Part shown: positions 76 through 48,712 of the stretch, one piece after another
Position numbering within the stretch: the first letter of the stretch is position 1
Layout of the letters: each line of letters begins with the position of its first letter
Virus record (IMG/VR): IMGVR_UViG_3300021960_000109
Span: 1 to 50,512 of that record
Source of the DNA: a virus
Reading direction: 5' to 3' (one strand)
Length of the DNA: 50,512 nt
Position numbers and translations under genes: made by a program
Notes under the pieces: generated by a model
What the model was told of the DNA's origin: nothing
What the model saw: only the letters and a program-made list of their open reading frames with translations
Database searches by the model: none

Positions 76-278
76 CTGACACTGTAAATGTTCTGCCTCA
101 TCTTCGTGAATTGAAAGATGCTTGGAGAAGGCAAGATTTTGTTTTTACCAAACAACAGCAAGAAGAATACAATCTTTTGATTGCTGCTCGTCGTGAACGT
201 GTAAAGTATTTCTACGACAACGACATGGTGTGTAAAGTAAGCAAATCTGCTCAAGACAAACTGAAAGAGGACAATTAA
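72..278 (+). CDS. Small conserved cyanophage-type protein, 68 aa, unknown function
   Basis: Starts at the ATG that overlaps the previous stop (ATGA). The 68-residue product is charged and probably helical, with a core reading LKDAWRRQDFVF followed by RRERVKYFYDND. From memory, similar short proteins are annotated as hypothetical in T4-like cyanophages; I know of no role. There is no signal peptide, membrane segment or catalytic motif. A strong rho-independent terminator begins 11 bases after the stop, so this gene probably ends its transcription unit. Confidence 0.75.
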   Translation: MTDTVNVLPHLRELKDAWRRQDFVFTKQQQEEYNLLIAARRERVKYFYDNDMVCKVSKSAQDKLKEDN

Positions 279-289
279 AGAACTGTCAC

Positions 290-316
290 AAGGGAACCTC
301 CACGTTCCCTTTTTTG
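290..316 (+). terminator. Rho-independent terminator
   Basis: Perfect 8-bp stem AAGGGAAC (290-297) / GTTCCCTT (304-311) with a 6-base CTCCAC loop, followed by more T residues to 315. It lies directly after the 68-aa gene and before the KxDG protein. The TTG at 314 sits in the T tract, which argues against using it as the start of the next gene. Confidence 0.85.
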
Positions 317-346
317 CTTTATGATGAACCTGTGACTGAAACACCA

Positions 347-1288
347 ATGCAAAACAAGCACATCGAACATCCCGAAGATTCTATCCTGACGGGCAATCTT
401 TCTGTTCTTGATTGGTTCACTGCTGATTCTCATGTCAGTGTGAAAATTGATGGTGCTCCTGCGATTGTATGGGGTACAAATCCCGCAACTGGTAATTTCT
501 TCGTCGGCACTAAAAGTGTCTTCAACAAAGTAAAAATCAAAATCAATGAAACGCATAGCGACATTGACAATAATCATGTTGGCAATGTTGCTGACATTCT
601 TCACGCTGCCTTGGATTATCTTCCTCGTACAAACGGGATTGTTCAAGGTGATTTTATTGGGTTTGGTGGTGTGGATACTTTTCGCCCCAATACGATTACT
701 TACAGGTTCTCGGAGAAGGTAACTCAACAGATTGTTGTTGCTCCTCATACTTACTATACATTGACTGAATGGCAACAAAAGAACGCAAAAGAATTGCATA
801 AAATCCACAAAAACATTCTGAGGTTTGCTGTTGCACAACCTCTGACTAAAAAGTTTGTTGATACTCTAGATGTCAAGTGGGTGCAACCTGAAGCAGAAAT
901 CTGTCCCCATCGTGATGACATTCATGATTTCTGCAAGTTTGCTAAACAAATGAGCACTCTTTGTACCTTCGTGAATGATAAGCAAGCAAAAGAACTCAAA
1001 AAAGTCATCAATTCCTACATCCGCGAGGGTAAGGAAGTAGATGAGCATGAAATTGCAGAAAATTATGATGTTGACATTAACCTGCTGCGATTGTGGAAAC
1101 TGATTGAGTCTATCAAGATGGACATGTTTTTCTACATTGAATCTGACACTGACATTCAATGCGAAATTGCTGGGAGAATTAGCGATCATGAAGGTTTTGT
1201 GATGCACAATGAGTTTGGAAGTTACAAGATTGTGAATCGTGAGGAGTTTTCTCATCAAAACTTTGTTCTCTCTAAACAATGGAGTTGA
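347..1288 (+). CDS. Nucleotidyltransferase-like phage protein with a KxDG motif (DUF6267-like)
   Basis: The 313-residue product begins MQNKHIEHPEDSIL and carries VSVKIDGAPAIVWG at residues 30-43. KIDG at 33-36 matches motif I of covalent nucleotidyltransferases (DNA and RNA ligases, capping enzymes), where the Lys receives the NMP. Further along are VQGDF, EGFVMH near the C-terminus and YKIVNR just after it, which resemble motifs III, IV and V. Family members I remember from myoviruses (DUF6267, from memory) are uncharacterised. I chose ATG 347 because the in-frame TTG at 314 lies in the terminator tail; GTG 332 is an alternative. Ligase or nucleotidylation activity is an inference, since no OB-fold domain is evident. 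Confidence 0.75.
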   Translation: MQNKHIEHPEDSILTGNLSVLDWFTADSHVSVKIDGAPAIVWGTNPATGNFFVGTKSVFNKVKIKINETHSDIDNNHVGNVADILHAALDYLPRTNGIVQGDFIGFGGVDTFRPNTITYRFSEKVTQQIVVAPHTYYTLTEWQQKNAKELHKIHKNILRFAVAQPLTKKFVDTLDVKWVQPEAEICPHRDDIHDFCKFAKQMSTLCTFVNDKQAKELKKVINSYIREGKEVDEHEIAENYDVDINLLRLWKLIESIKMDMFFYIESDTDIQCEIAGRISDHEGFVMHNEFGSYKIVNREEFSHQNFVLSKQWS

Positions 1289-1294
1289 TAAATA
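1287..1294 (+). promoter_or_regulatory. Candidate T4-type late promoter (GATAAATA)
   Basis: GATAAATA differs from the T4 late box TATAAATA only in its first base. It overlaps the stop of the preceding gene and ends 20 bases before ATG 1315. The same box and spacing occur ahead of gp25, gp8 and gp13 in this window. It suggests that the next two genes are late genes, unlike their neighbours. Confidence 0.6.
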
Positions 1295-1314
1295 TCTAAA
1301 AAAGTATTTGTAAA

Positions 1315-1794
1315 ATGGCAAAGTATCAAACAAAAGCAAGAACTTTTGGAGAGTTCATTGCGATTGCTGAAGCAGTAGTTTATGGTGGTGAAAAGAAAGA
1401 ACCAAAAGATACTAGAATGATTGTAACTGCTTCTGATAGAAAAGCAAATACAAAAGCATGGCAGAATTATCTAGCAGGACATTCTGGTTACAGAGCGGCA
1501 TCACATTTGAATAAAGAAGAACATGAAATTGATGAGGCAAAATCAGATGCTGGACTTTCTGTTGCACAAAAAAGACAAGTAAGAACTGCAAGACAAGGTT
1601 ATGCAGGAGTAGCAATTCCAAATTCTTCTCTTCATACTGGAGATATTTCTAGAAGAGCAGCACACAGAGACAGAGATGAGATGAATAAGGATGCAAAAGA
1701 CATTCGCAAAGGTAAGTTAAATCAACCACAGTTTCAAGGAAGAACTGGACAAGAACGTGTTGCAATCGTTAAAAAGGCAAAAGGCATGAAATAA
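1315..1794 (+). CDS. Predicted late, capsid-targeted basic protein, 159 aa
   Basis: Begins MAKYQTKARTFGEFIAIAEA. The stretch TFGEFIAIAEA resembles the T4 internal-protein targeting peptide MKTYQEFIAEA, with a possible prohead-protease site after IAE (residue 19). The remainder is Lys/Arg/Ala-rich and hydrophilic, ending in KKAKGMK, fitting a DNA-associated internal protein. It follows a late-type promoter box and abuts the next gene with no gap. Nearly every Arg codon is AGA, as in the structural genes and unlike the surrounding small genes. No enzymatic motif was recognised. Packaging in the head is inferred, not shown. Confidence 0.75.
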   Translation: MAKYQTKARTFGEFIAIAEAVVYGGEKKEPKDTRMIVTASDRKANTKAWQNYLAGHSGYRAASHLNKEEHEIDEAKSDAGLSVAQKRQVRTARQGYAGVAIPNSSLHTGDISRRAAHRDRDEMNKDAKDIRKGKLNQPQFQGRTGQERVAIVKKAKGMK

Positions 1795-2181
1795 ATGAAA
1801 ACATTTACGCAGTTCATTGCAGAAGCAAAAGAAGCAAAACCACCCAAAGAGGTTTTGAATAAAATAGCAAAAGCATATGGTAGAAAACACCGTGGTGTAA
1901 ATGTTGACACTTCTCATAGTGAAAAGACTGGTAACATTCGTGTGAATCAGTTATGGGTTCCTCCCGATAAACAGGGAAAAGGTATAGGAACCAGAGTGAT
2001 GAAAGGATTAAGCAAGTATGCAGACAAAACTGGTAAGAAAATTACATTAAATCAAGATCCTGATCCTGGAAAGAAAGAAAAACTAGCAAAGTTCTACAAA
2101 TCTCACGGATTCCAAGCAAATAAAGGTAAGAAAAGAGATTTCTCAACATCTGACACACATATTAGACATCCACAGTCATAA
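1795..2181 (+). CDS. GNAT-family acetyltransferase with a capsid-targeting N-terminus
   Basis: The 128-residue product starts MKTFTQFIAEA, close to the T4 capsid-targeting peptide MKTYQEFIAEA (differences at positions 4, 5 and 6), with the expected cleavage point after E10. Next comes a compact GNAT fold: WVPPDKQGKGIGTRVM at 54-69 holds the acetyl-CoA loop QxKGIG (60-65), and FYKSHGF at 100-106 is the typical motif B. N-acetyltransferases of this fold use acetyl-CoA to modify amines; the substrate is unknown. It starts immediately after the previous stop (TAA then ATG) and is probably co-transcribed from the late box at 1287. The combination suggests an enzyme packaged in the head. Confidence 0.8.
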   Translation: MKTFTQFIAEAKEAKPPKEVLNKIAKAYGRKHRGVNVDTSHSEKTGNIRVNQLWVPPDKQGKGIGTRVMKGLSKYADKTGKKITLNQDPDPGKKEKLAKFYKSHGFQANKGKKRDFSTSDTHIRHPQS

Positions 2182-14883: not shown

Positions 14884-17800
14884 ATGATATCAACAGATCT
14901 CAAGAGAGTACAAATCCAAGATGTAATCGAACATCAACTCCCTTCTTTCGTGAGGGAGGATTTTCCTTTAATTGCAGAATTCTTAAAACAATATTATATT
15001 TCTCAAGAATATCTTGGAGCCTCTGTCGATTTAATACAAAATATAGATGAATATTTAAAGTTAGAGTCTTTAACAAATACAACTGACTCAACTCTTCTAA
15101 CGTCTGCGATATCATTCAATGATACTACAATTAATGTTAAATTTGATTTAGCAAATAATGTTTTAGGAACCTACGGATTTCCTGAAAAATATGGATTAAT
15201 TAAGATTGATGATGAAATAATTTTATATACAAATAAAACAACTAATAGTTTTACTGGATGTATAAGAGGATTTAGTGGAGTAACTTCGTATACAAAATTA
15301 GATGTATCTGACAATCTCACTTTTTCAACCTCAGAGATTGCAGAACATACAAAAGATACAAAAATTGTAAATTTAAGCAATTTACTTCTAAAAGAATTTT
15401 TAACAAAGATTAAATATCAATTTACTCCAGGATTCGAAAATAGAGATTTTGATTCTGATGTAAATGAAAGACTTTTTATATCAAGAGCAAAAGATTTTTA
15501 TCAAACAAAAGGAACTGATGAATCATTTAAGATTCTTTTCGGTGCTTTGTATGGCGAAAAAGTAGAAATTATAAAACCAAGGGACTACCTGTTTAAACCA
15601 TCGGATGCACAATATAGAGTCACGAAAGATATTGTAGTTGATGTTTTATCCGGCAATCCTCTCCAATTATTAAATAAAACTATTTTCCAGGATGCCTATC
15701 CAAAGTATGGAATTGAAAAAGCATATGCTCCTGTTACTGACGTTGAAAAACTTTTTTATGATGGAAAAGAATACTATAAACTCAGCGTTGACTTTGATTA
15801 TTCTAAAGATATTACTTTTAATGGAAGTATTTTTGGAGATTTTTCAGTACACCCCAAAACTAAAGTAATAACAACGGTTTCAGCAGGTTCATCAATTATT
15901 GATGTTGATTCTACCGTAGGATTCCCTAAATCTGGCGAGTTAGTTGTAAAATATTCATCTGGAAGTTCTGGTATTGTTTCTTATACTTCAAAATCAATAA
16001 ATCAATTTTTTGGAACATCAAACATAATATCCAATATTGATCTGACAGAGGACGTTAGGTTAAATGTTTATTCATATGGATATGTAGGAGTTGGTACTAC
16101 ATCTAGAGTTGATTTTAGAATAGGATCAGTTCTATCAAATTTAAAATTTGATGATCAGACATATTATTACTCTAAAAACGATACTGCCACCATCAAATCA
16201 CTTGGAATTACAACTTCAAGTCCAAAAACTGATAGTTGGATTTATAATCTTGCAACTAAGTATGATGTAAAATCTTTATTATTAATTGATACTTCTAGTT
16301 TTACTTACAGAGTAAGTACATATACAAGAAATAATTTTAACATCGGAGACAAATTAACGATTATAGACTCTGCTCTAACATCTAAAGATTGTTCTGTCAA
16401 TGGGATTACAGATGAGTTTACATTTTCTATAAGTGGACAAGGATATCTGAATACAAATCAAATAGGTTTTAAAGTTCAAAGAAAAATTTCAAAACCTCAA
16501 TTAAGTTCTTTATTATCAAATTATTCTTATATAACAAATTATACATCAAATATTCAAAATACATATGTAAAATTTAATCAAGATGTTTTAGTTGCGGCAT
16601 CATCAATTCCAACTTATAATAATCAACCATTAAATTTCTATGATAGAAAAATAGTTTTGAATGGCAATTATACTGGTTCAGTATTCACTGTTCCAAATAT
16701 CACTGATCATGGATATTATACTGGAGATGCTGTATACTATAAACCATTCACAAAATTAGTTGATGTAGACGGAACACCAATAGAAGTAGTAAGTAAATTT
16801 GATAATATAACAGAAGGAGTGTATTACATAAAAAGACTCCAAAATACAAATCAGTTTAAATTGGCAAGTAGTCAAGCTAATTTGTATAATGAAAAATTTA
16901 TATCAGTATCTGGAATTGTAACATCAAATACCTTAGAGTATGTTGATTTTAATAATAAAACACTCCAACATCAGCAATTATTAAGAGAAATCAAAGCACC
17001 AAATAACGAAAGTGGATATTATTTAACTGATCCTGGAAAAACTGGAATATTAATTAATGGAGTAGAAATTTTAAATTATAAGTCAGAAGATACCGTTTAC
17101 TACGGTTCTTTAAATAATGTTGTTGTCTCATCGAAAGGAAATGATTATGATGTAATTAATCCCCCAATTTTATCAATAAAAGATAAAGTTGGAACTGGTG
17201 CAACAGGAACTTGTGCAGTAAAGGGATATCTTCAAAAAATTGATATTATTAATCCTGGATTTGATTATGTTACTAAACCAATAGTTACCATTACTGGTGG
17301 AAATGGATATGGAGCAAAGGCAGAAGTAAACACAATATTTGTAAATCACTCTATTTCTTTTAATGCAACATTAGAATCTGCTTTTGTAAATTTAACGAAT
17401 AATACAATAGGATTTTCTACATATCACAAATTCAGAAATGCTGAAAAAGTAGTTTATAAAACGGACGGACAAACCGCAGTTACTGGGATTGTCACTGATT
17501 CTTTTTACTATGTTCAAACTGTAGATGCTTCTACAATTAAACTCTATCAAAAAGAGACAGATGCAATTTCTGGTATAAACACTGTTTCTCTTACCGGATA
17601 TGGAGTTGGTGTACATAGAATACAAGCATTTAATAAAAAACAAATAGTTTCAAATATTTCAGTTGTTGATTCTGGATCAAATTACGAAAATAAAAAAAGA
17701 ATTGCAAATTCGTCGGGTATTAATACGGCAGCGAATCAAATTAACATAGAAAATCACCAATATAATTCTGGAGAAATTGTACTATATTCTTATGATCAAA

Positions 17801-20800
17801 CCTCAATATCCGGTTTAAGTTCATCTACTCCATATGTTGTAACTAAGGTAGACGAAAATAATTTCAAACTATCAAGTGTTGGTGTTGGCTCTATTACAAA
17901 ACTTTTTTATTTTAACAACAAACAGTACCTTGATTTAGAATCAAGTGGTTCTGGGAATCATATTTTCAATTATGAACCAATATCAGTTTCAGTCATTGGG
18001 GAAATTGGAGTATCTACTTTCACTGGACAAGATTTTTCTGCAAAAATTCAACCAGTGTTTAGGGGATCTATTGAATCAGTTCAAGTAACAAACTCCGGAG
18101 TTGGATATGGAGTTACAGATATTTTAAATTACAATAGACAACCTATTTTTACGTTGTTAAGTGGATCTTCAGCACAACTTCTACCAATAGTTAATAATGG
18201 ACAAATTATTGAAGTTTTAGTTACCAATCAAGGAAAAGAATATAATTCTCCTCCAGAGTTAATTGTTTCTGGATCTGGAAAATATGCAAAATTAATTCCT
18301 ATTATAAGTGATGGGAAAATAAAATCAGTAAAGATTGATAGTCCTGGAATTGGATATGATGACAAAACTGTGGTTACTGTCGTTCCTAGTGGCAATGGAG
18401 CTGCCTTTAATGCTGATATACAAAAATGGACAATTAATTTATTCCAAAAATATTTAAATATTATTTCAGATGATGATGGAATTTTAACAAAAGCAACTAA
18501 TGAAGAGTTCGGAGTTCAATATTCTCACCTGTATGCTCCAAGAAAATTAAGAGAATCTATTTACGGAAAAGGTGAAGATAACCAAATAAAATATGGAGTT
18601 TTCGATCTCCAAAAAACTCTGAATGGAGAAGAAATTTCATCAGCATATCATTCACCAATAATTGGTTGGGCATATGATGGAAATCCAATTTACGGTCCCT
18701 ATGGATTCTCATCAAAAACTGGAGAAGGTATTCGTGCAATGAAGTCTGGATATACCCCAGTCACTAGATTAAATAGACCTCCTTTTACTCAAGGATTTTT
18801 TGTTGAGGATTATGAGTTCACTAACTCTGGGGATTTAGATGAGCATAATGGACGTTTTTGCAAAACACCCGACTTTCCAAATGGTGTGTATGCTTATTTT
18901 GCAACAATAAACTCAGAAAGAACGGAAACATCGTCTTCTTTTAACAAATACAGGATTCCCGTCTTCCCATATTTGATAGGAAATACATTTAAATCAAAAC
19001 CAAATTCATTCAATTTTGATATAGAATCAAATCAAATTTCTTATGATTTAAATTCTTCATCTTGGTTTAGAAATACAACGCCATATAGTTTAACTGAAAG
19101 TGCATCTTCTTATGATTTCTTATTCCAACCAAACAAAATAAAATTACAAACAGTAAACATCAATGAAACTTCTAAAGGTGGAATTGATAAAATTGGCATT
19201 GTAACAGGTGGAATTGGTTATAAAGTCAATGATGCTATTATATTTGAAAAGCAGCAATATGCACAACAACCTAAAGCAAGAGTATCTAAGATACTAGGAA
19301 AATCAGTAACTAATGTCAGTGTATCTAGTACAACAATATCACAATTAGAAATTATTCCTTTTGATTCTAATGGTTCATATGTTGCATTTGCAACATCTCC
19401 TCATAATTTGTCCAATAATAATCTGATTTCACTATCTGGATTTAATACTGCAGTTAATTATCTGCAATCTAGTTTTAATATAGGTGTAAGAACAGAGAGA
19501 CTAATTCTGAACACGGGAGTGGGGACAGATGGAGTTACTGGAATTGCAACTTATTTTAGTGTATCTGGAAATCTAAGAATTGATAATCCTCTTGCAATAA
19601 GAGAAAATGATATCATCACAGTAGGAACAGAAAAATTAAAAGTTTTGGGAGTAGATGAATTAAATTCTAGAATTAGAGTTTTAAGATCTCAAGAAAATAC
19701 AGTTTCATCTGCTCATACTGCATCGACAATATTATACGAAAATCCAAGAAAGTTCACTTTCTCTTCTCTTCCAGAAAATAAAGTTACGTTTGAGATTAAT
19801 AAAGAAATTTATTTTAATCCAAATGAATCAGTAGGACTTGGTTCTTTAAGTGGGGTAGGTGTAGGTACAACTATATTCTTCTCAAATCCAGGTGCTGGTA
19901 TAACTCAAATTTTTATACCGACACAATCAATCTATATTCCAAAACACAATTTAAATACAGGTGATTCTTTAACCTATCGTAATAATGGCGGAAGTTCAAT
20001 TATAGTCTCTACCGATGGCGTAAGTGGATTTGCACTTTCAGATTTTTCTACAGTTTATGTCGGAAAAATTTCTAATGATTTAATTGGAATATCAACATAT
20101 AAAGTTGGCATAGGTTCTACTGGCACCTTTGTGGGTATTGCAAGCACGACTTCTAATAGTGGACTCTTATACTTTACTGGAATTGGTACTGGAGTCTATC
20201 ATAGTTTTAAAACTGCAAAACAAAATGTTGTCACTGCAGAGGCAAATAAAAATACTGTAACGGTTGCTACTGCATCAACTCATGGTTTAATCCTAAATGA
20301 TACTGTTGATATTCAAATAAATTGCGGGATAACCACAACAGTGGTTGTAAAATATGATGACTATAATCGAAGAATAATATTTAATCCCAAATCATTTGTT
20401 GCTAGTGATGTGAATATTATCGATAGTACCATCACAATTGCGAATCATGGATTTAATAGTGGGGATAAAGTAATTTACACATCACCATCTCCATCTGGAG
20501 GACTTGTAAATGAAAAAATTTACTATGTTTTTAGATTCTCCAATGATAAAATTAAATTGTGTAATGAGAGATATCAGTCTATTCAGTTTAATCCAGAGAC
20601 TATTTCCATAACTTCAGCATCATCTGGAACTCTATCTTCAATTAATCCATCAATAAGGGCGTATAAAAATAATACGCTTAGATTTGACTTGTCTGATTCG
20701 TCTTTATCAAGTCTTAGTGGATCTACTTTATATTCTGCATTTGATTTTAATTTATATTCTGATTCAGAATTTAGGAATGTTTTTGACTCTTCGGAAAAAA

Positions 20801-23800
20801 CAAGATTCTTTGAAGTTTCTAAAGTTGGACAAATAGGAATAACAACAAATGCGGCACTAGTTTTAAATATTACTGATTCTTTACCAAAAATACTATATTA
20901 CAAATTTTCTCCAATAAATTCTCAATTCGTTTCTCAAGTAAAGAAAGAAATCTTTATTGATACTGAGATTACAAATGCGAATCAAGTAGAAATTGCAGAT
21001 AGTCTGTATAATGGTTCATTTACTGTTGTTGGAGTTGGGACAACTACAACCTTTACTTACAATTTAAAAAATACTCCCGAAAAGAATAGTTACGATTTAA
21101 GTGAAGCAAATATTAAGTATATAACCAACTCTTCTTCTGCAGATGGTGAGATAGCAGATATTGATATAACATATTCTGGAAAAGGTTATCAAAATATAGT
21201 TGGAATATCCACGATAAATTCTACAAGTGGAATTGGAGCTATACTTGAGCCATCTAGTACATCTATAGGCAAAATAGTTTCAAACCAAATTGATGATATT
21301 GGATTTGATTTTCCGACAGATAAAACTTTAAGACCTGTCTGCAATTTACCGGAAATCTTATTAATGGAACCACTTTCATCATTCAATGAAATTGGAATCA
21401 CTTCCGCTGGGAAAAATTATACAATAGCTCCAAAATTAGTTGTAATCGATGGATATACTGGCAAAGTTGTTGATGATGTAGATTTATCTTATAAGATAGG
21501 AGATACCAAAGTAAAGATTTTAAAAAATACATTTGGAATTTATGATACTACTCCAAAAATTATTCCTACGAATAACCAAAATGGAATAGGAATTAATAAT
21601 ATTTCATACAATACTACCACTAAAGAAGTTAGTGTTGGATTAAATACTGGGTTTAGTGATTCTTTCCCATTCTCTGTTGGCGATAAAGTTTTAATTGAAA
21701 ATATTAGTGTTGGTATTGCCACGACGGGAATCGGTTATAACTCTGCAGATTATGGATATTCATTATTTACTTTAACCAAAGTTCCATCAGGCGCAAGTGC
21801 TCTTGGAGGAAGTGTTGGAGTTGTTACATATAGTCTAGATGGATTATTAAAGGAAGGTACTATACCAGGAAATTATGATTCTTTAAGATCTTCTGGAAGA
21901 ATCATCGCAGAAAAAGATTTTCCAGTTTTTGATATTAAACTTAAGAAAAATAACTTCATACTCGGTGAAACAGTTATTTCTGGAAATAACGTAGGACAAG
22001 TTGAAAGTTGGGATAATGAAATTGAACTATTAAAAGTTTCCACAACTAAAGATTTTAGAGTTGATGATATTGTAGTGGGGCAAACATCAAGAACTCAAGG
22101 TGCAATTAAATCCAAAATTGATTTCAATGCAGAAATTGAAATCGGTTCTAGTTCTATTGTTAAAAAAGGTTGGAATAGGGAGACTGGATTCTTAAATTAT
22201 AACACAGAGAGAATTTCAGATAATAATTATTATCAAAATTTCTCATATTCACTGAAATCTAAAGTCCCATTTGAAACTTGGAACGATTCTGTAAGTTCTT
22301 TGAACCATACTGCAGGATTTTTAAAATTTAGCGATTTAGTTATTGAATCTGCGGATAAAAACTTTAAAGGTGTAAGTTCAAGTTATAGAGGCGGCACTAT
22401 TGATATTGTTGTGGATGTTTATGGAGAAGCCGACTTAAATTGCTATTCAAATTTTGATTTAGTTACCGAAAATTCTTTAAGTGCTGGAGGTTCAATTATT
22501 TCTGATGAGATTTATTTTGGTTCTAAAGTATTAACTGATTACTTTGAATCATTTGGGAATAGAGTTTTGATAATTGATGATATTAGCACTCAATTTAATA
22601 GCACTCCAAGATCAACAAAATATTCAATAGTTGATAAATTTAATTCCGAACATAAAGTTAAAAAATATTTTACATATGTAAGAGATAAAAGATTTACTGG
22701 AGAATCTCAGTTCTTAATAGTCTCTCTATTGCAAAATGGAGGATTTGGATATTTAAATCAATATGGTAGAGTGGAAAGCCAATTAGATCTTGGAAGTTTT
22801 GATTTCAGCATATCTGGAACTGAGGGGCAATTAGAATTCTATCCTACCAAATATGCTGTCAACAATTATAATATAAGTTTTGCAAGTTTTGATATTCATA
22901 GTTCAGCTGCTGGAATAGGTTCCACAACATTAGGTGATGTAGTAGACATAAGATCTTCAAAAGCAAATGTCTCAGTTGCTACTACAACAACTATTGTTTC
23001 TTTTGCTTCAACATACAGAACATCAAAAATACTTGTAGAAATTAGAGGAAATAATGGTGAATTTGAATTTGATGAAATGAATGTGATTCATGATGGAACA
23101 ACAGTTGAGTTTTTAGATTATGGACAATTAACGAATCATTCTCTAAATCCTTTCGGAGCTTCTGGATTGGGAACTTATAATGCATATATTTCTGGAGGAA
23201 ACGTAAAAATTGACTTTACTCCAAATGTAGGTATAGCAGCTACTGTTGATGCAATAACTGTTTCTATAGCAAGTACGTTATCAACAGGTATCGGTACTCA
23301 ATATCTTGGATTTGATTCGGAAAATATTGCTTTTATTGATTCTTCGTATGTTTCAATTGCAGCATCAACTTCCCCAACAGAAAATGTAATCGCTCGTTAT
23401 AGTAACGTTATACCTAATGATCATAAATGTTCTTATTATTTGATAAGTGTGGAGGACACCACTAATAATCGTTATGAAATGTCTGAAGTTATTGTCTTAG
23501 ATGATGGCACAGATGCATACATTACAGAGTATGGAAATCTAATAACTCATTCTGGACTTGGAACTGTTGGCGCAGCTGTTTCTTCATCGTACACCAATCT
23601 TTATTACACTCCCGTTCCAAATATTGATGCTCAGATTCGTGTTTTCCAAACTAGTCTTCAATTAGTTGATTTAGAAGATTCTACTTCAACTGAGATAGAA
23701 TTAAATAATGCACTTATTAGTGCAGGATATGGATTCTATCGAGGAACAGAAACTGATGTTAAGAGAGCATTTGATTTAAAACATAAACAAAGACCAATAT

Positions 23801-26800
23801 TCCTTAGAAACTTTAATGGAAGCAGTTCATCGATCGTAGATGTAACAGAAAATACTATTTTAATTCCGGAACATTTCTTTGTAACAGGAGAAGAAGTTGA
23901 ATATTCTTATGATACAGAAAATGCAAGTCCTATTGGAATTGCGTCTACAAGTTTTGTTGGTGTTGGTACAACAAGTCTTCTTCCATCTTCCGTCTATGTT
24001 ATTAAAATTAATGATCAAAAGATAAAACTTGCAAGAACAGCAGAAGATGCTTTACAAACAATTCCAAATGCTTTAGATATTACAAGTGTTGGAGTGGGAA
24101 CATATCATACATTTACATGCAAAAAACAAAACTCTAAGTGTATTATTGCAATTGATAATTATATTCAATCTCCAATTGTTGCTACTTCGGTTACAACTGG
24201 ACTTACAACTCATATCGGACTTGTTGATGATATAATTAGATTCTCTGGAATAACATCATTCTTTGGCGGAGATCTCATTCAAATCGATAATGAGATTATG
24301 AAAATTAACACGGTGGGATTAGGGAGCACTAACTATATTCTTGTAGATCGTCCTTGGATGGGAACAGGATTATCAACACACTCCGAATATTCAGTAGTAA
24401 CTAAGGTTCAAGGTAATTATAATATAGTTGATAATACAATTAATTTTATAACAGCACCTCAAGGACCCATACCTATAAGTAGCATTACAAATGCTCCAGA
24501 TGAAAGAGATTGGACGGGTATAACCACTTTCTCAAAATTCCAAGGTAGAACTTTCTTAAGATCTGGTATTGAAAATAGTAATGCCGAATCATACAATTCT
24601 AACTATATTTTCGATGATATTTCACAATATTTTGATGCAACAACCAAAACGTTTACACTAAAATCAGATGAAACAAATGTAACTGGTTTTTCTACAAATA
24701 ACGCTGTCATACTCATAAACGGTATTTTCCAAGGACCAACTGGTCAACTTCCAGTTGCCGAAGATTATTCTTTAAGTGAAGGATCTGGTATTAGTAGCAT
24801 CACTTTCTCTGGTGCTGCAACTTCTGTCTCATATGATCCAAATAATGCAAGTATACCAGTAGGGGGTATTATCGTATCCGTAGGTTCAACTGAAGGATTT
24901 GGTTATCAACCTCTTGTTTCTGCAGGAGGAACTGCAGTTGTATCTATTGCAGGAACAATATCTTCTATTAGCATCGGCAATAGTGGATCTGGATATAGAG
25001 CTGGAATTCAAACAACAGTTAGAGTTGGCGTTACAACTGCAACAACTGGTGTTCCAAATATACAATTTATTGGTACAGCCGCAATAAGCGGAGGTAATAT
25101 TGTAAGTGTTGCAATAACAAATCCGGGCGTTGGATATACTTCATCAAATCCACCTTTAGTTATTTTTGATTCGCCATTATCTTATTCTGACATACCACTA
25201 ATTTATAGTTCATCATCTCCCGCAGGATTTGGTACTCAGGCAACAGTCGATATTGTCGTTGGACAAGGTTCTAGTGTAATTGATTTTGAAATCAAAAACT
25301 CTGGTTATAATTATGGACAACAACAAGTCTTAACTATCGCTACGGGTGGATTGGCAGGAATACCAACAGATTTAACAAAACCATTTAAAGAATTTCAAAT
25401 TACAATCGATAAAACAATATCGGATGAATTTTCTGGATGGCATTTGGGGCAATTGGAAGTTCTAGATAAAATTGAAAATCAATTTGACGGAGTTACAAGA
25501 TCTTTTAATATTTCTGTAAATTCTTCTCCAGTTACTATAAGAGCAGCAAAAGGTTCAAATATTGATGTCCAAGCAACTTTACTTGTATTCTTAAATGATG
25601 TCTTACAAGTTCCAGGAGAGGGTTATACATTTAATGGAGGGAGCGTAATTACATTTGCCGAAGCTCCAAGAGCAACATCAGCTGATGGCTCTGTTATTGG
25701 TGATAAATGCAAAATTCTTTTCTATAAAGGAAGTGGGGACGTTGATGTAATTTTCCGCGATGTTTTAGAAACAGTTAAACCAGGAGATAATCTAACAATC
25801 AAAGGGCAAGATGAAAGATTAGTTACTTCAGTGGTTTCCTCAAGTACTGTTGAAACTAATCCTTATAATGGAGAAGGAATCGATTCAAATCCTTCAAATC
25901 AAAGAGTTGTTGAATGGTGCAAGCAAACTTCCGACAAGATTATCAATGGACAAATTGTAAGTAAAGCAAGAGTATTAAATGCAGCACTCGTAAATCCAAC
26001 TACATACATAATTCAACCTGTTGGTGTTGGTTCTACAATTGCTTATGTTGAAAGTGTAAGGACATTCTTTAATTCTGAGAAAGAAAACAACACTGTTCTC
26101 AATACACAAAATATTGTATTGACTTCTCAAGATTCAATTGTTGGAGCTTCAGCAACTGCTGTTGTTTCTGTTGCAGGAACAATTACTTCAATTTCCATCT
26201 CCGATGGTGGTGTTGGATATACAACTGCACCAGCAGTAATCATTGCAAATCCTGTTGGATATGGAACAACTGCAAGAGCAACTGCAACTGCAACTCTTAC
26301 TGGCGATGCAGTTTCTTCAATCACAGTTTCTACACCTGGAACTGCATATACAACTACAAATCCACCAGTTGTTCTGATTGAAATTCCACAAACCATTTAT
26401 GAAAATAACACTTCAGACTCTTACACTGGTGATTTTGGCACTATCGTTGGTGTGACTTCTACATCAGTTGGCGTTGCTTCTACTGGATTTGTTCTTGATT
26501 TGTTTATTCCAATTGATTCCTATTTGAGAGATACTTCTATTGTCAGCACTGCTACTACTATTAGTGGTATTCAAACTGGAGATTATTTCGTTGTTAAAAA
26601 TAGTAATGTTGGAAGTGGAGTTACTTCCCTCTATCAAGACAATACTGTCTTAGGCATTACCACACAATTCTTGGATTGTGTCTATGAGGTGGCTTCTGTT
26701 TCCACTGCAACAACGTCTGTCGCTGGTGTTGGATTGACTTATATTAGAAGGGTAACCATTAGTGTTAGTGATTTGGGCGACATTTCTGGAATTGGAGCAA

Positions 26801-26958
26801 CTGAATTCTATGGAGAATATTCATGGGGAATGGTTGATTTGGGAGTCAGAACTTCTCCACAAACATTTAATGCATATACTTTGAATGGTTCTGCTGGAAT
26901 TTCAACATCATCAACTTTGACTAGAGCACAACCTCTGAAATTATCCAATTATACTTAA
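14884..26958 (+). CDS. Giant gp7-like baseplate wedge protein with YHYH domain, 4024 aa
   Basis: A single unbroken 4024-codon frame. Residues about 24-230 resemble the C-terminal part of T4 gp7: FVREDFPLIAEFLKQYY and, near 200, KDFYQTKGTDESFKILFGAL, comparable with the STKGIEASYKFLFKVLY stretch of gp7. About 1250-1345 is a YHYH-type domain (WAYDGNPIYGPYGF, LDEHNGRFCKTPDFPNGVYA). Many GxGYTxxP units recur (around 790, 1070-1165, 1442, 2098, 3366-3415, 3774-3820). A VIHDGT module occurs twice (2697-2796, 2832-2926), and a DDEI-type module near 72-130 and 3110-3172. It is about four times the size of T4 gp7, probably adding peripheral baseplate or fibre mass. Place between gp6 and gp8 fits gp7. 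Confidence 0.8.
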   Translation: MISTDLKRVQIQDVIEHQLPSFVREDFPLIAEFLKQYYISQEYLGASVDLIQNIDEYLKLESLTNTTDSTLLTSAISFNDTTINVKFDLANNVLGTYGFPEKYGLIKIDDEIILYTNKTTNSFTGCIRGFSGVTSYTKLDVSDNLTFSTSEIAEHTKDTKIVNLSNLLLKEFLTKIKYQFTPGFENRDFDSDVNERLFISRAKDFYQTKGTDESFKILFGALYGEKVEIIKPRDYLFKPSDAQYRVTKDIVVDVLSGNPLQLLNKTIFQDAYPKYGIEKAYAPVTDVEKLFYDGKEYYKLSVDFDYSKDITFNGSIFGDFSVHPKTKVITTVSAGSSIIDVDSTVGFPKSGELVVKYSSGSSGIVSYTSKSINQFFGTSNIISNIDLTEDVRLNVYSYGYVGVGTTSRVDFRIGSVLSNLKFDDQTYYYSKNDTATIKSLGITTSSPKTDSWIYNLATKYDVKSLLLIDTSSFTYRVSTYTRNNFNIGDKLTIIDSALTSKDCSVNGITDEFTFSISGQGYLNTNQIGFKVQRKISKPQLSSLLSNYSYITNYTSNIQNTYVKFNQDVLVAASSIPTYNNQPLNFYDRKIVLNGNYTGSVFTVPNITDHGYYTGDAVYYKPFTKLVDVDGTPIEVVSKFDNITEGVYYIKRLQNTNQFKLASSQANLYNEKFISVSGIVTSNTLEYVDFNNKTLQHQQLLREIKAPNNESGYYLTDPGKTGILINGVEILNYKSEDTVYYGSLNNVVVSSKGNDYDVINPPILSIKDKVGTGATGTCAVKGYLQKIDIINPGFDYVTKPIVTITGGNGYGAKAEVNTIFVNHSISFNATLESAFVNLTNNTIGFSTYHKFRNAEKVVYKTDGQTAVTGIVTDSFYYVQTVDASTIKLYQKETDAISGINTVSLTGYGVGVHRIQAFNKKQIVSNISVVDSGSNYENKKRIANSSGINTAANQINIENHQYNSGEIVLYSYDQTSISGLSSSTPYVVTKVDENNFKLSSVGVGSITKLFYFNNKQYLDLESSGSGNHIFNYEPISVSVIGEIGVSTFTGQDFSAKIQPVFRGSIESVQVTNSGVGYGVTDILNYNRQPIFTLLSGSSAQLLPIVNNGQIIEVLVTNQGKEYNSPPELIVSGSGKYAKLIPIISDGKIKSVKIDSPGIGYDDKTVVTVVPSGNGAAFNADIQKWTINLFQKYLNIISDDDGILTKATNEEFGVQYSHLYAPRKLRESIYGKGEDNQIKYGVFDLQKTLNGEEISSAYHSPIIGWAYDGNPIYGPYGFSSKTGEGIRAMKSGYTPVTRLNRPPFTQGFFVEDYEFTNSGDLDEHNGRFCKTPDFPNGVYAYFATINSERTETSSSFNKYRIPVFPYLIGNTFKSKPNSFNFDIESNQISYDLNSSSWFRNTTPYSLTESASSYDFLFQPNKIKLQTVNINETSKGGIDKIGIVTGGIGYKVNDAIIFEKQQYAQQPKARVSKILGKSVTNVSVSSTTISQLEIIPFDSNGSYVAFATSPHNLSNNNLISLSGFNTAVNYLQSSFNIGVRTERLILNTGVGTDGVTGIATYFSVSGNLRIDNPLAIRENDIITVGTEKLKVLGVDELNSRIRVLRSQENTVSSAHTASTILYENPRKFTFSSLPENKVTFEINKEIYFNPNESVGLGSLSGVGVGTTIFFSNPGAGITQIFIPTQSIYIPKHNLNTGDSLTYRNNGGSSIIVSTDGVSGFALSDFSTVYVGKISNDLIGISTYKVGIGSTGTFVGIASTTSNSGLLYFTGIGTGVYHSFKTAKQNVVTAEANKNTVTVATASTHGLILNDTVDIQINCGITTTVVVKYDDYNRRIIFNPKSFVASDVNIIDSTITIANHGFNSGDKVIYTSPSPSGGLVNEKIYYVFRFSNDKIKLCNERYQSIQFNPETISITSASSGTLSSINPSIRAYKNNTLRFDLSDSSLSSLSGSTLYSAFDFNLYSDSEFRNVFDSSEKTRFFEVSKVGQIGITTNAALVLNITDSLPKILYYKFSPINSQFVSQVKKEIFIDTEITNANQVEIADSLYNGSFTVVGVGTTTTFTYNLKNTPEKNSYDLSEANIKYITNSSSADGEIADIDITYSGKGYQNIVGISTINSTSGIGAILEPSSTSIGKIVSNQIDDIGFDFPTDKTLRPVCNLPEILLMEPLSSFNEIGITSAGKNYTIAPKLVVIDGYTGKVVDDVDLSYKIGDTKVKILKNTFGIYDTTPKIIPTNNQNGIGINNISYNTTTKEVSVGLNTGFSDSFPFSVGDKVLIENISVGIATTGIGYNSADYGYSLFTLTKVPSGASALGGSVGVVTYSLDGLLKEGTIPGNYDSLRSSGRIIAEKDFPVFDIKLKKNNFILGETVISGNNVGQVESWDNEIELLKVSTTKDFRVDDIVVGQTSRTQGAIKSKIDFNAEIEIGSSSIVKKGWNRETGFLNYNTERISDNNYYQNFSYSLKSKVPFETWNDSVSSLNHTAGFLKFSDLVIESADKNFKGVSSSYRGGTIDIVVDVYGEADLNCYSNFDLVTENSLSAGGSIISDEIYFGSKVLTDYFESFGNRVLIIDDISTQFNSTPRSTKYSIVDKFNSEHKVKKYFTYVRDKRFTGESQFLIVSLLQNGGFGYLNQYGRVESQLDLGSFDFSISGTEGQLEFYPTKYAVNNYNISFASFDIHSSAAGIGSTTLGDVVDIRSSKANVSVATTTTIVSFASTYRTSKILVEIRGNNGEFEFDEMNVIHDGTTVEFLDYGQLTNHSLNPFGASGLGTYNAYISGGNVKIDFTPNVGIAATVDAITVSIASTLSTGIGTQYLGFDSENIAFIDSSYVSIAASTSPTENVIARYSNVIPNDHKCSYYLISVEDTTNNRYEMSEVIVLDDGTDAYITEYGNLITHSGLGTVGAAVSSSYTNLYYTPVPNIDAQIRVFQTSLQLVDLEDSTSTEIELNNALISAGYGFYRGTETDVKRAFDLKHKQRPIFLRNFNGSSSSIVDVTENTILIPEHFFVTGEEVEYSYDTENASPIGIASTSFVGVGTTSLLPSSVYVIKINDQKIKLARTAEDALQTIPNALDITSVGVGTYHTFTCKKQNSKCIIAIDNYIQSPIVATSVTTGLTTHIGLVDDIIRFSGITSFFGGDLIQIDNEIMKINTVGLGSTNYILVDRPWMGTGLSTHSEYSVVTKVQGNYNIVDNTINFITAPQGPIPISSITNAPDERDWTGITTFSKFQGRTFLRSGIENSNAESYNSNYIFDDISQYFDATTKTFTLKSDETNVTGFSTNNAVILINGIFQGPTGQLPVAEDYSLSEGSGISSITFSGAATSVSYDPNNASIPVGGIIVSVGSTEGFGYQPLVSAGGTAVVSIAGTISSISIGNSGSGYRAGIQTTVRVGVTTATTGVPNIQFIGTAAISGGNIVSVAITNPGVGYTSSNPPLVIFDSPLSYSDIPLIYSSSSPAGFGTQATVDIVVGQGSSVIDFEIKNSGYNYGQQQVLTIATGGLAGIPTDLTKPFKEFQITIDKTISDEFSGWHLGQLEVLDKIENQFDGVTRSFNISVNSSPVTIRAAKGSNIDVQATLLVFLNDVLQVPGEGYTFNGGSVITFAEAPRATSADGSVIGDKCKILFYKGSGDVDVIFRDVLETVKPGDNLTIKGQDERLVTSVVSSSTVETNPYNGEGIDSNPSNQRVVEWCKQTSDKIINGQIVSKARVLNAALVNPTTYIIQPVGVGSTIAYVESVRTFFNSEKENNTVLNTQNIVLTSQDSIVGASATAVVSVAGTITSISISDGGVGYTTAPAVIIANPVGYGTTARATATATLTGDAVSSITVSTPGTAYTTTNPPVVLIEIPQTIYENNTSDSYTGDFGTIVGVTSTSVGVASTGFVLDLFIPIDSYLRDTSIVSTATTISGIQTGDYFVVKNSNVGSGVTSLYQDNTVLGITTQFLDCVYEVASVSTATTSVAGVGLTYIRRVTISVSDLGDISGIGATEFYGEYSWGMVDLGVRTSPQTFNAYTLNGSAGISTSSTLTRAQPLKLSNYT

Positions 26959-48394: not shown

Positions 48395-48712
48395 ATGAAA
48401 TCATTTCAACAATTCCTCTCAGAAAGTGTAAATATTGCAGGAGATTTCAATGGGAATCTCTATATTGGTGGTTCAGAAACTCAACCAGAACCTGTTGGCG
48501 AATCTTTTTTTGCTGACATTGTTTGGGAAGGAAAGATTTATCGTATGGAAATTGAAGGTAGTATGATGTCAAAAAATGAACTTGCAGAGGAACTTCAGGG
48601 GGAGTATCCTGGTGCAATTGTTCATAACATATATCCAGCACAATCTCAAAGTTCTTTAAAAATCAAGAATTCTCAGAGGTATCAACCAGAAAAACTAACT
48701 TGGGGTGAATAA
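48395..48712 (+). CDS. Predicted internal capsid protein, 105 aa
   Basis: Begins MKSFQQFLSES, matching the T4 capsid-targeting pattern, with a likely prohead-protease cut after LSE (residue 10). Residues 38-81 (FFADIVWEGKIYRMEIEG..., ELQGEYPGAIVHNIYP) resemble residues 475-520 of the mosaic protein upstream, so the two share a domain. It lies 1 base after the mosaic gene and its stop overlaps the following ATG. Packaging and role are inferred. Confidence 0.75.
   Translation: MKSFQQFLSESVNIAGDFNGNLYIGGSETQPEPVGESFFADIVWEGKIYRMEIEGSMMSKNELAEELQGEYPGAIVHNIYPAQSQSSLKIKNSQRYQPEKLTWGE

Follow-up and report, generated by a model that had tools for sequence, protein, structure and literature searches.

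Alt, an ADP-ribosyltransferase (ART) of bacteriophage T4, is packaged in the phage head, processed by the gp21 protease and injected. The T4 internal proteins Ip1-3 enter the host by injection and inhibit restriction enzymes (PMC12373910), and in the T4 capsid-targeting sequence (CTS) positions 4 and 7 govern targeting while positions 8 and 10 govern processing (PMC9026906). Phages are known to modify host proteins with GNATs and ARTs (PMC7824862), and in polyvalent proteins, which are likely head-packaged, a GNAT of the RimI clade typically neighbours an ART (Iyer et al., 2017; PMC5512222); DarB of phage P1 has an N-terminal packaging signal of its own. Here we analysed a 50,512-nucleotide (nt) fragment of a T4-like cyanophage (IMG/VR record IMGVR_UViG_3300021960_000109, hereafter the window), whose neck protein is closest to that of Synechococcus phage B23 (58.6% identity across its full length), and in which two abutting genes (1315-1794 and 1795-2181) encode a basic protein and a GNAT acetyltransferase that both bear CTS-like leaders. 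Our reading, which we hold at a probability of roughly three in four, is that the pair forms a late operon making head-packaged, gp21-cut and injected cargo.

The GNAT (1795-2181, plus strand; 128 aa, net charge +17) begins with the T4-type capsid-targeting sequence MKTFTQFIAE (1795-1824, plus strand), with a predicted gp21 cut between E10 and A11. The open reading frame (ORF), the GNAT assignment and the MKTFTQFIAEA start on which the original prediction was built were all confirmed. Eight of these 11 residues are identical to MKTYQEFIAEA, the start of IPII and IPIII in the T4 record, and the peptide has what characterizes a T4-type CTS: an aromatic residue at position 4, F7, I or L at 8, E10 and a small residue at 11. 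Constraint on this tag was read from a codon table of the nine GNAT orthologues that carry it at their N-terminus: positions 1-3, 6, 7 and 10 are invariant, position 4 is F or Y, 8 is I or L and 11 is A or S, and only positions 5 and 9 vary freely, the invariant residues being mostly written with varying synonymous codons (ACA/ACT/ACC, CAG/CAA, TTT/TTC, GAA/GAG). The constraint matches that of T4: free variation is confined to positions that are also free there, and an aromatic residue at 4, F7, I or L at 8 and E10, which serve targeting and processing in T4, are kept. Distant GNATs (35-36% identity) are tagged too, MKTFDEFLTEG in S-CRM01 and MKTYSQFITEA in B23, and in B23 a second tagged gene with its own box (MKTYREFISEA) adjoins the GNAT. 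As for the enzyme itself, it matches PF13508 (E=1.9e-8) and two further GNAT models above cut-off, and it contains the motif A acetyl-CoA binding signature (Q/RxxGxG/A) as QGKGIG, residues Q60 to G65 (1972-1989, plus strand), with G65 kept in 14 of 14 aligned sequences; close orthologues keep this catalytic loop.

The 159-aa basic protein (1315-1794, plus strand; net charge +13) is related to virion proteins of other cyanophages. Its residues 9-20 are RTFGEFIAIAEA, and the leader RTFGEFIAIAE (1339-1371, plus strand) ends at a predicted gp21 cut after E19, before A20 (nt 1372). The same variant leader, [RK]TFxEFxx[IV][ACT]E, occurs in at least nine loci, with a late box ahead of each. Beyond it lies a module, AVVYGGEKK...MIVTASDRKANTKAWQ...HEIDE (1372-1536, plus strand), between two gp21-like sites (IAE↓A and IDE↓A, the arrow marking the cut), which is found again after an E in L014, L028, L052 and S-SSM5 gp185 (L-numbers denote the loci compared; L004 is B23, L066 S-CREM2 and L072 T4). 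Over residues 8-79, the basic protein is 33% identical to S-SCSM1_89 (pairwise E=1e-6), which has the same layout and is labelled a virion protein, and it matches the interior of S-SSM5 gp185 at 54% over 59 aa; a PHROGs search gave no informative family for it.

The late-type box announced ahead of the pair is indeed there: GATAAATA (T4/cyanophage NATAAATA) lies at 1287-1294 on the plus strand, and its ATAAATA begins 27 nt before the ATG at 1315. In the window, ATAAATA occurs ten times on the plus strand and never on the minus strand, and eight of the ten stand 18-63 nt ahead of an ORF. Related loci nearly always have a late box ahead of the operon's first gene, usually at 26-30 nt, and we propose from sequence that the pair 1315-2181 is a late operon. 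The gp21 protease (PF03420) is present in all four annotated relatives searched (S-CRM01, S-SSM5, B23 and Bellamy) and in most of the larger contigs with a CTS; the counts for IMG/VR records with tagged or related loci, several of which are fragments, are 6 of 10 and 6 of 8. Its specificity appears conserved, since the S-CREM2 major capsid protein retains an LLTE↓A site.

A degenerate DNA pattern for the tag has a single match in the window, at 1795, and none in 100 dinucleotide shuffles, and the strict protein motif has four matches in the six frames of the T4 genome: ipII, ipIII, gp61.1 and one TTG-started frame on the opposite strand. With empty shuffles and few T4 matches, among which the positive control recovers ipII and ipIII as it should, the motif is specific. 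T4 gene 61.1 (L072, T4 19130-18966) encodes a 54-aa hypothetical protein that begins MKTFKEFIKEDMVAG, a good CTS, and gp61.1 is possibly an overlooked T4 internal protein.

The tag is also associated with presence in virions. All 219 annotated proteins of S-CREM2 were translated and divided into the 52 that were detected in virions according to the published Table 3 (PMC10665884) and the 167 others. A strict N-terminal tag is borne by 5 of the 52 proteins detected by mass spectrometry (MS) and by none of the 167 others (Fisher p=6e-4); a looser motif, which also takes in the Cas9-like gp12 and a protein not detected in virions, is found in six detected proteins vs one undetected (p=8e-4). The tagged proteins on the virion list are gp6, 12, 13, 14, 136 and 154, and the tagged enzymes of this phage include a SAM hydrolase (MKDFDSFLEEF), an APH-like kinase (VKRFDAFLTEE) and a cytidylyltransferase (MKNFSSFLTEA, with TATAAATA at -28). 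In S-SCSM1, a tagged NMNAT (MKSFLQFLKEA) is an MS-detected virion enzyme. S-CREM2 gp12 (L066:7704-10313, minus strand), annotated as Cas9-like and virion-detected, has RFASFMAEA near its N-terminus; its Cas9 label is doubtful because a Pfam search returned no family for it.

The original prediction also held that no system of this type had been described in cyanophages, which stands only in part. Virion enzymes of cyanophages (NMNAT/cytidylyltransferase, kinase, SAM hydrolase) have already been reported and their carry-in with the virion suggested, as the accessible parts of two reports state (PMC10665884, PMC9602691); a link between these enzymes and a CTS was found neither in those parts nor in the literature searched. 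In the open literature searched, no paper containing the phrase capsid targeting sequence has a title on cyanophages, and 'capsid targeting' occurs together with Synechococcus in a single paper, which concerns a Salmonella phage. The tag would supply a mechanism for the enzymes in cyanophage virions.

A scan of IMG/VR with a strict DNA pattern (~22 fixed bases) encoding MKTFx[EQ]FIxEA yielded at least 117 tagged sites for analysis. Among the matches listed, 108 of 117 start no more than 20 codons past the upstream stop and 113 are at least 60 codons long; the box, where present, lies mostly 23-31 nt upstream; the products fall into ~30 families that are unrelated beyond the tag, and 94% of them are net positive (median +11.7 per 100 aa vs -2.3 for S-CREM2 proteins). 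Tagged families include ART-like, GNAT, cytidylyltransferase, glucosaminidase (PF01832, E=1e-13) and DUF6267 proteins. The tag is not peculiar to the gene pair; it seems to be a general signal borne by many families of cargo.

In the mechanism that we propose, the tags (MKTFTQFIAE on the GNAT, RTFGEFIAIAE on the basic protein) would dock the proteins on the scaffold core during prohead assembly, and gp21 would cut after (I/L)xE to leave A11-S128 of the GNAT and the basic protein from A20 onward, perhaps with a second cut after E74. The basic cleavage products would remain in the head alongside the DNA and enter the cell with it at infection, where the acetyltransferase would modify a host protein ahead of phage gene expression, most likely as an aid to takeover or to disarm a defence. 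The steps differ in how sure they are. Head targeting and gp21 cleavage, both foreseen in the original prediction, are well supported by the orthologue constraint, the late boxes, the gp21 of relatives and the tagged proteins in virion proteomes; packaging of this GNAT in the head appears highly probable and its cleavage by gp21 probable. The GNAT is probably packed and injected because the pair carries a T4-type head-loading peptide, injection, argued from the parallel with T4 IPI-III and Alt and with polyvalent proteins, being likely but less assured than packaging. Catalytic activity can be expected with good confidence, and an effector role, argued from the same parallel, has slightly better than even odds. 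Host RNA polymerase, ribosome-associated proteins or a defence protein are candidate targets. A PADLOC search recognized neither protein of the pair, nor the ART-like protein.

Packaging through the CTS could also serve a role within the head, the cargo acting as core or DNA-condensing basic proteins and the acetyltransferase being no host effector and maybe inactive. The cargo is strongly basic, like the T4 internal proteins, T4 IPIII affects head morphology (PMC9026906), and the B23 GNAT is without the canonical glycine of the acetyl-CoA loop. We consider this improbable: the loop is kept in close GNAT orthologues, and the distinct tagged enzyme folds (GNAT, ART-like, cytidylyltransferase, SAM lyase, glucosaminidase), patchy and shuffled as they are, are a better fit to effectors. 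Late proteins acting in the producing cell's own cytoplasm, such as by protein acetylation during assembly, with the motif as a docking helix unrelated to packaging, are less probable still. Late boxes would suit any late gene, and the S-CREM2 authors were unable to rule out contamination of the virions by highly expressed enzymes (PMC10665884), but the motif fits the T4 requirement position by position, cleavage residues included; it is common to ~30 unrelated families among the matches listed, and it predicts virion presence. That the N-terminal likeness reflects coincidence or the common descent of one gene family we regard as very unlikely. The motif is short, at 11 residues, but the shuffles are empty and at least 117 IMG/VR sites stand against far fewer than one expected (a rough estimate from the pattern and the collection size), while common descent is opposed by unrelated folds that share the tag alone. 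Chance resemblance of the tag was rejected on the S-CREM2 virion association, the empty shuffles and the few T4 matches.

Several observations nevertheless weigh against packaged, cut and injected cargo. The sequence TFGEFIAIAEA, which the original prediction had compared with the T4 peptide, is present in the basic protein at T10-A20, but it is two residues longer than T4's from F to E and is set back from the extreme N-terminus, and this protein fits a CTS only through that variant. Structure prediction of the GNAT, also proposed at the outset, was divided: the top PDB matches of the AlphaFold model are GNATs (Foldseek prob 1.0), but the model itself is weak (predicted local distance difference test, pLDDT, 58.6). 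gp21 is absent from the window, which is a fragment. Proteome support comes from tagged relatives (S-CREM2, S-SCSM1) and not from a phage with this GNAT, and S-SCSM1_30, which bears a CTS, is without a virion-detected label. Finally, the B23 GNAT (L004:8001-8393, plus strand) keeps the tag with a degraded acetyl-CoA loop (RGKKKG), so that GNAT activity may not always matter.

In related loci, the operon's first gene is swapped or fused. An ART-like gene with a CTS is the neighbour of the GNAT in L013 and L024, and in L026 the two are fused (462 aa). Pfam matches of this family to ART-PolyVal and PARP are both sub-threshold, its model (pLDDT 78.9) has Tpt1/KptA as best PDB matches (E about 0.004), and tblastn with the ART-like proteins as queries had no hit among annotated phages. 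In L013 a 463-aa protein with two repeats (92-1480, plus strand), the first of which begins MKTFQEFISLAERYYGPDEKLPSG, is encoded just upstream of the tagged ART-like gene and the GNAT. Fused GNATs have lost F4 and F7, but their joint remains gp21-like (L018, IVKE↓A; L022, IEE↓A; L026, VSE↓A), and other modules behave likewise. Across 18 cargo proteins there are 29 [ILV]xEA sites (20 non-redundant) vs 5.3 in shuffles, a count that does not equal independent events because the proteins are related; in the same proteins, expectation is not exceeded by control motifs that have a polar P3 or have P1 changed to K, Q or R, and only slightly by the one with D at P1 (7 vs 3.9), and the remaining ORFs of the window have no [ILV]xE↓A excess (ratio 1.03). 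Because gp21-like sites sit at the module joints, these data suggest that fused cargo may be polyproteins cut inside the prohead. The enrichment was not found in S-CREM2 cargo (ratio 1.19-1.28), which confines the polyprotein idea to the GNAT/ART neighbourhood as opposed to all tagged cargo. A broader view, to which we give somewhat less than even odds, is that in cyanophages and related T4-like phages the T4 tag would be a general, exchangeable address label for a large arsenal of injected enzymes, some of them made as modular polyproteins and cut by gp21 at [ILV]xE↓A joints within the prohead, with several effectors delivered by a single targeting event.

Upstream of the pair, at 326-1285 (plus strand), lies a DUF6267 gene (Pfam E=5.6e-83), untagged and without a late box. 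A DUF6267 gene is also found upstream of the same operon in L011, and in S-SSM5 it stands ahead of the cytidylyltransferase-gp185 pair. In L127 (947-2098, minus strand) the DUF6267 protein itself is tagged (MKTFAQFISEA), hinting that this family can be cargo. A second tagged gene of the window (48395-48712, plus strand; MKSFQQFLSES, phrog_1742) sits between two structural-type genes, and its product is 53% identical to S-SCSM1_30 (MKTFKQFMSES). One unusually long ORF of 4024 codons spans 14884-26958 (plus strand) amid baseplate/neck genes.

Taken separately, CTS cargo, injected enzymes and capsid-borne GNAT domains were already known or predicted; what is new is the T4 tag as a general cyanophage label, its statistical tie to published virion proteomes, the tagged GNAT-ART pair and the polyprotein hypothesis. 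If this is true, a ten-residue tag would make it possible to predict, with nothing but the sequence, the proteins that many T4-like viruses bring into the host, and it would provide a targeting mechanism for the puzzling virion SAM hydrolase, Cas9-like protein, kinase and cytidylyltransferase. The ART-like and GNAT families would become testable injected effectors against cyanobacteria, and gp21 would be suggested to dice polyprotein cargo as well.

Among small phage GNATs that modify host proteins, the anti-CRISPR acetyltransferase AcrVA5 and phiKMV Rac resemble the window GNAT, and AcrVA5 is among its fold matches; no specific sequence relation was seen, and we know of no CTS head packaging described for either. 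The virion NMNAT/cytidylyltransferase and kinases of S-CREM2 and S-SCSM1 are, like the proposed cargo, non-structural virion enzymes with the same tag; they differ in being other enzymes, and the accessible parts of their reports do not invoke the tag. With polyvalent proteins and P1 DarB the locus shares the GNAT-ART association and likely head packaging, and DarB-like and PLxRFG proteins are among the matches of the window GNAT. The difference is that the domains occur at this locus as small individual proteins or in short fusions, with a T4-type CTS and gp21-like sites between modules, and not in one giant polypeptide. We claim a domain relationship only and not membership: the window proteins are separate small ORFs, and the fusion of ART-like protein and GNAT in L026 has 462 aa. 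T4 Alt shares the idea of an injected protein-modifying enzyme, and a tagged ART-like protein stands beside or is fused to the GNAT in L013, L024 and L026, whereas the ART-like family resembles ART-PolyVal/PARP/Tpt1 and the window is without an ART at the locus. With T4 IPI-III the differences are that the window cargo is a GNAT enzyme unrelated in sequence to the internal proteins, that the partner's leader is longer and set back, and that some relatives fuse modules with internal gp21-like sites; shared with them are the constrained N-terminal peptide, the (I/L)xE↓A site, the small basic cargo, a late-type box in the cyanophages and gp21 in relatives.
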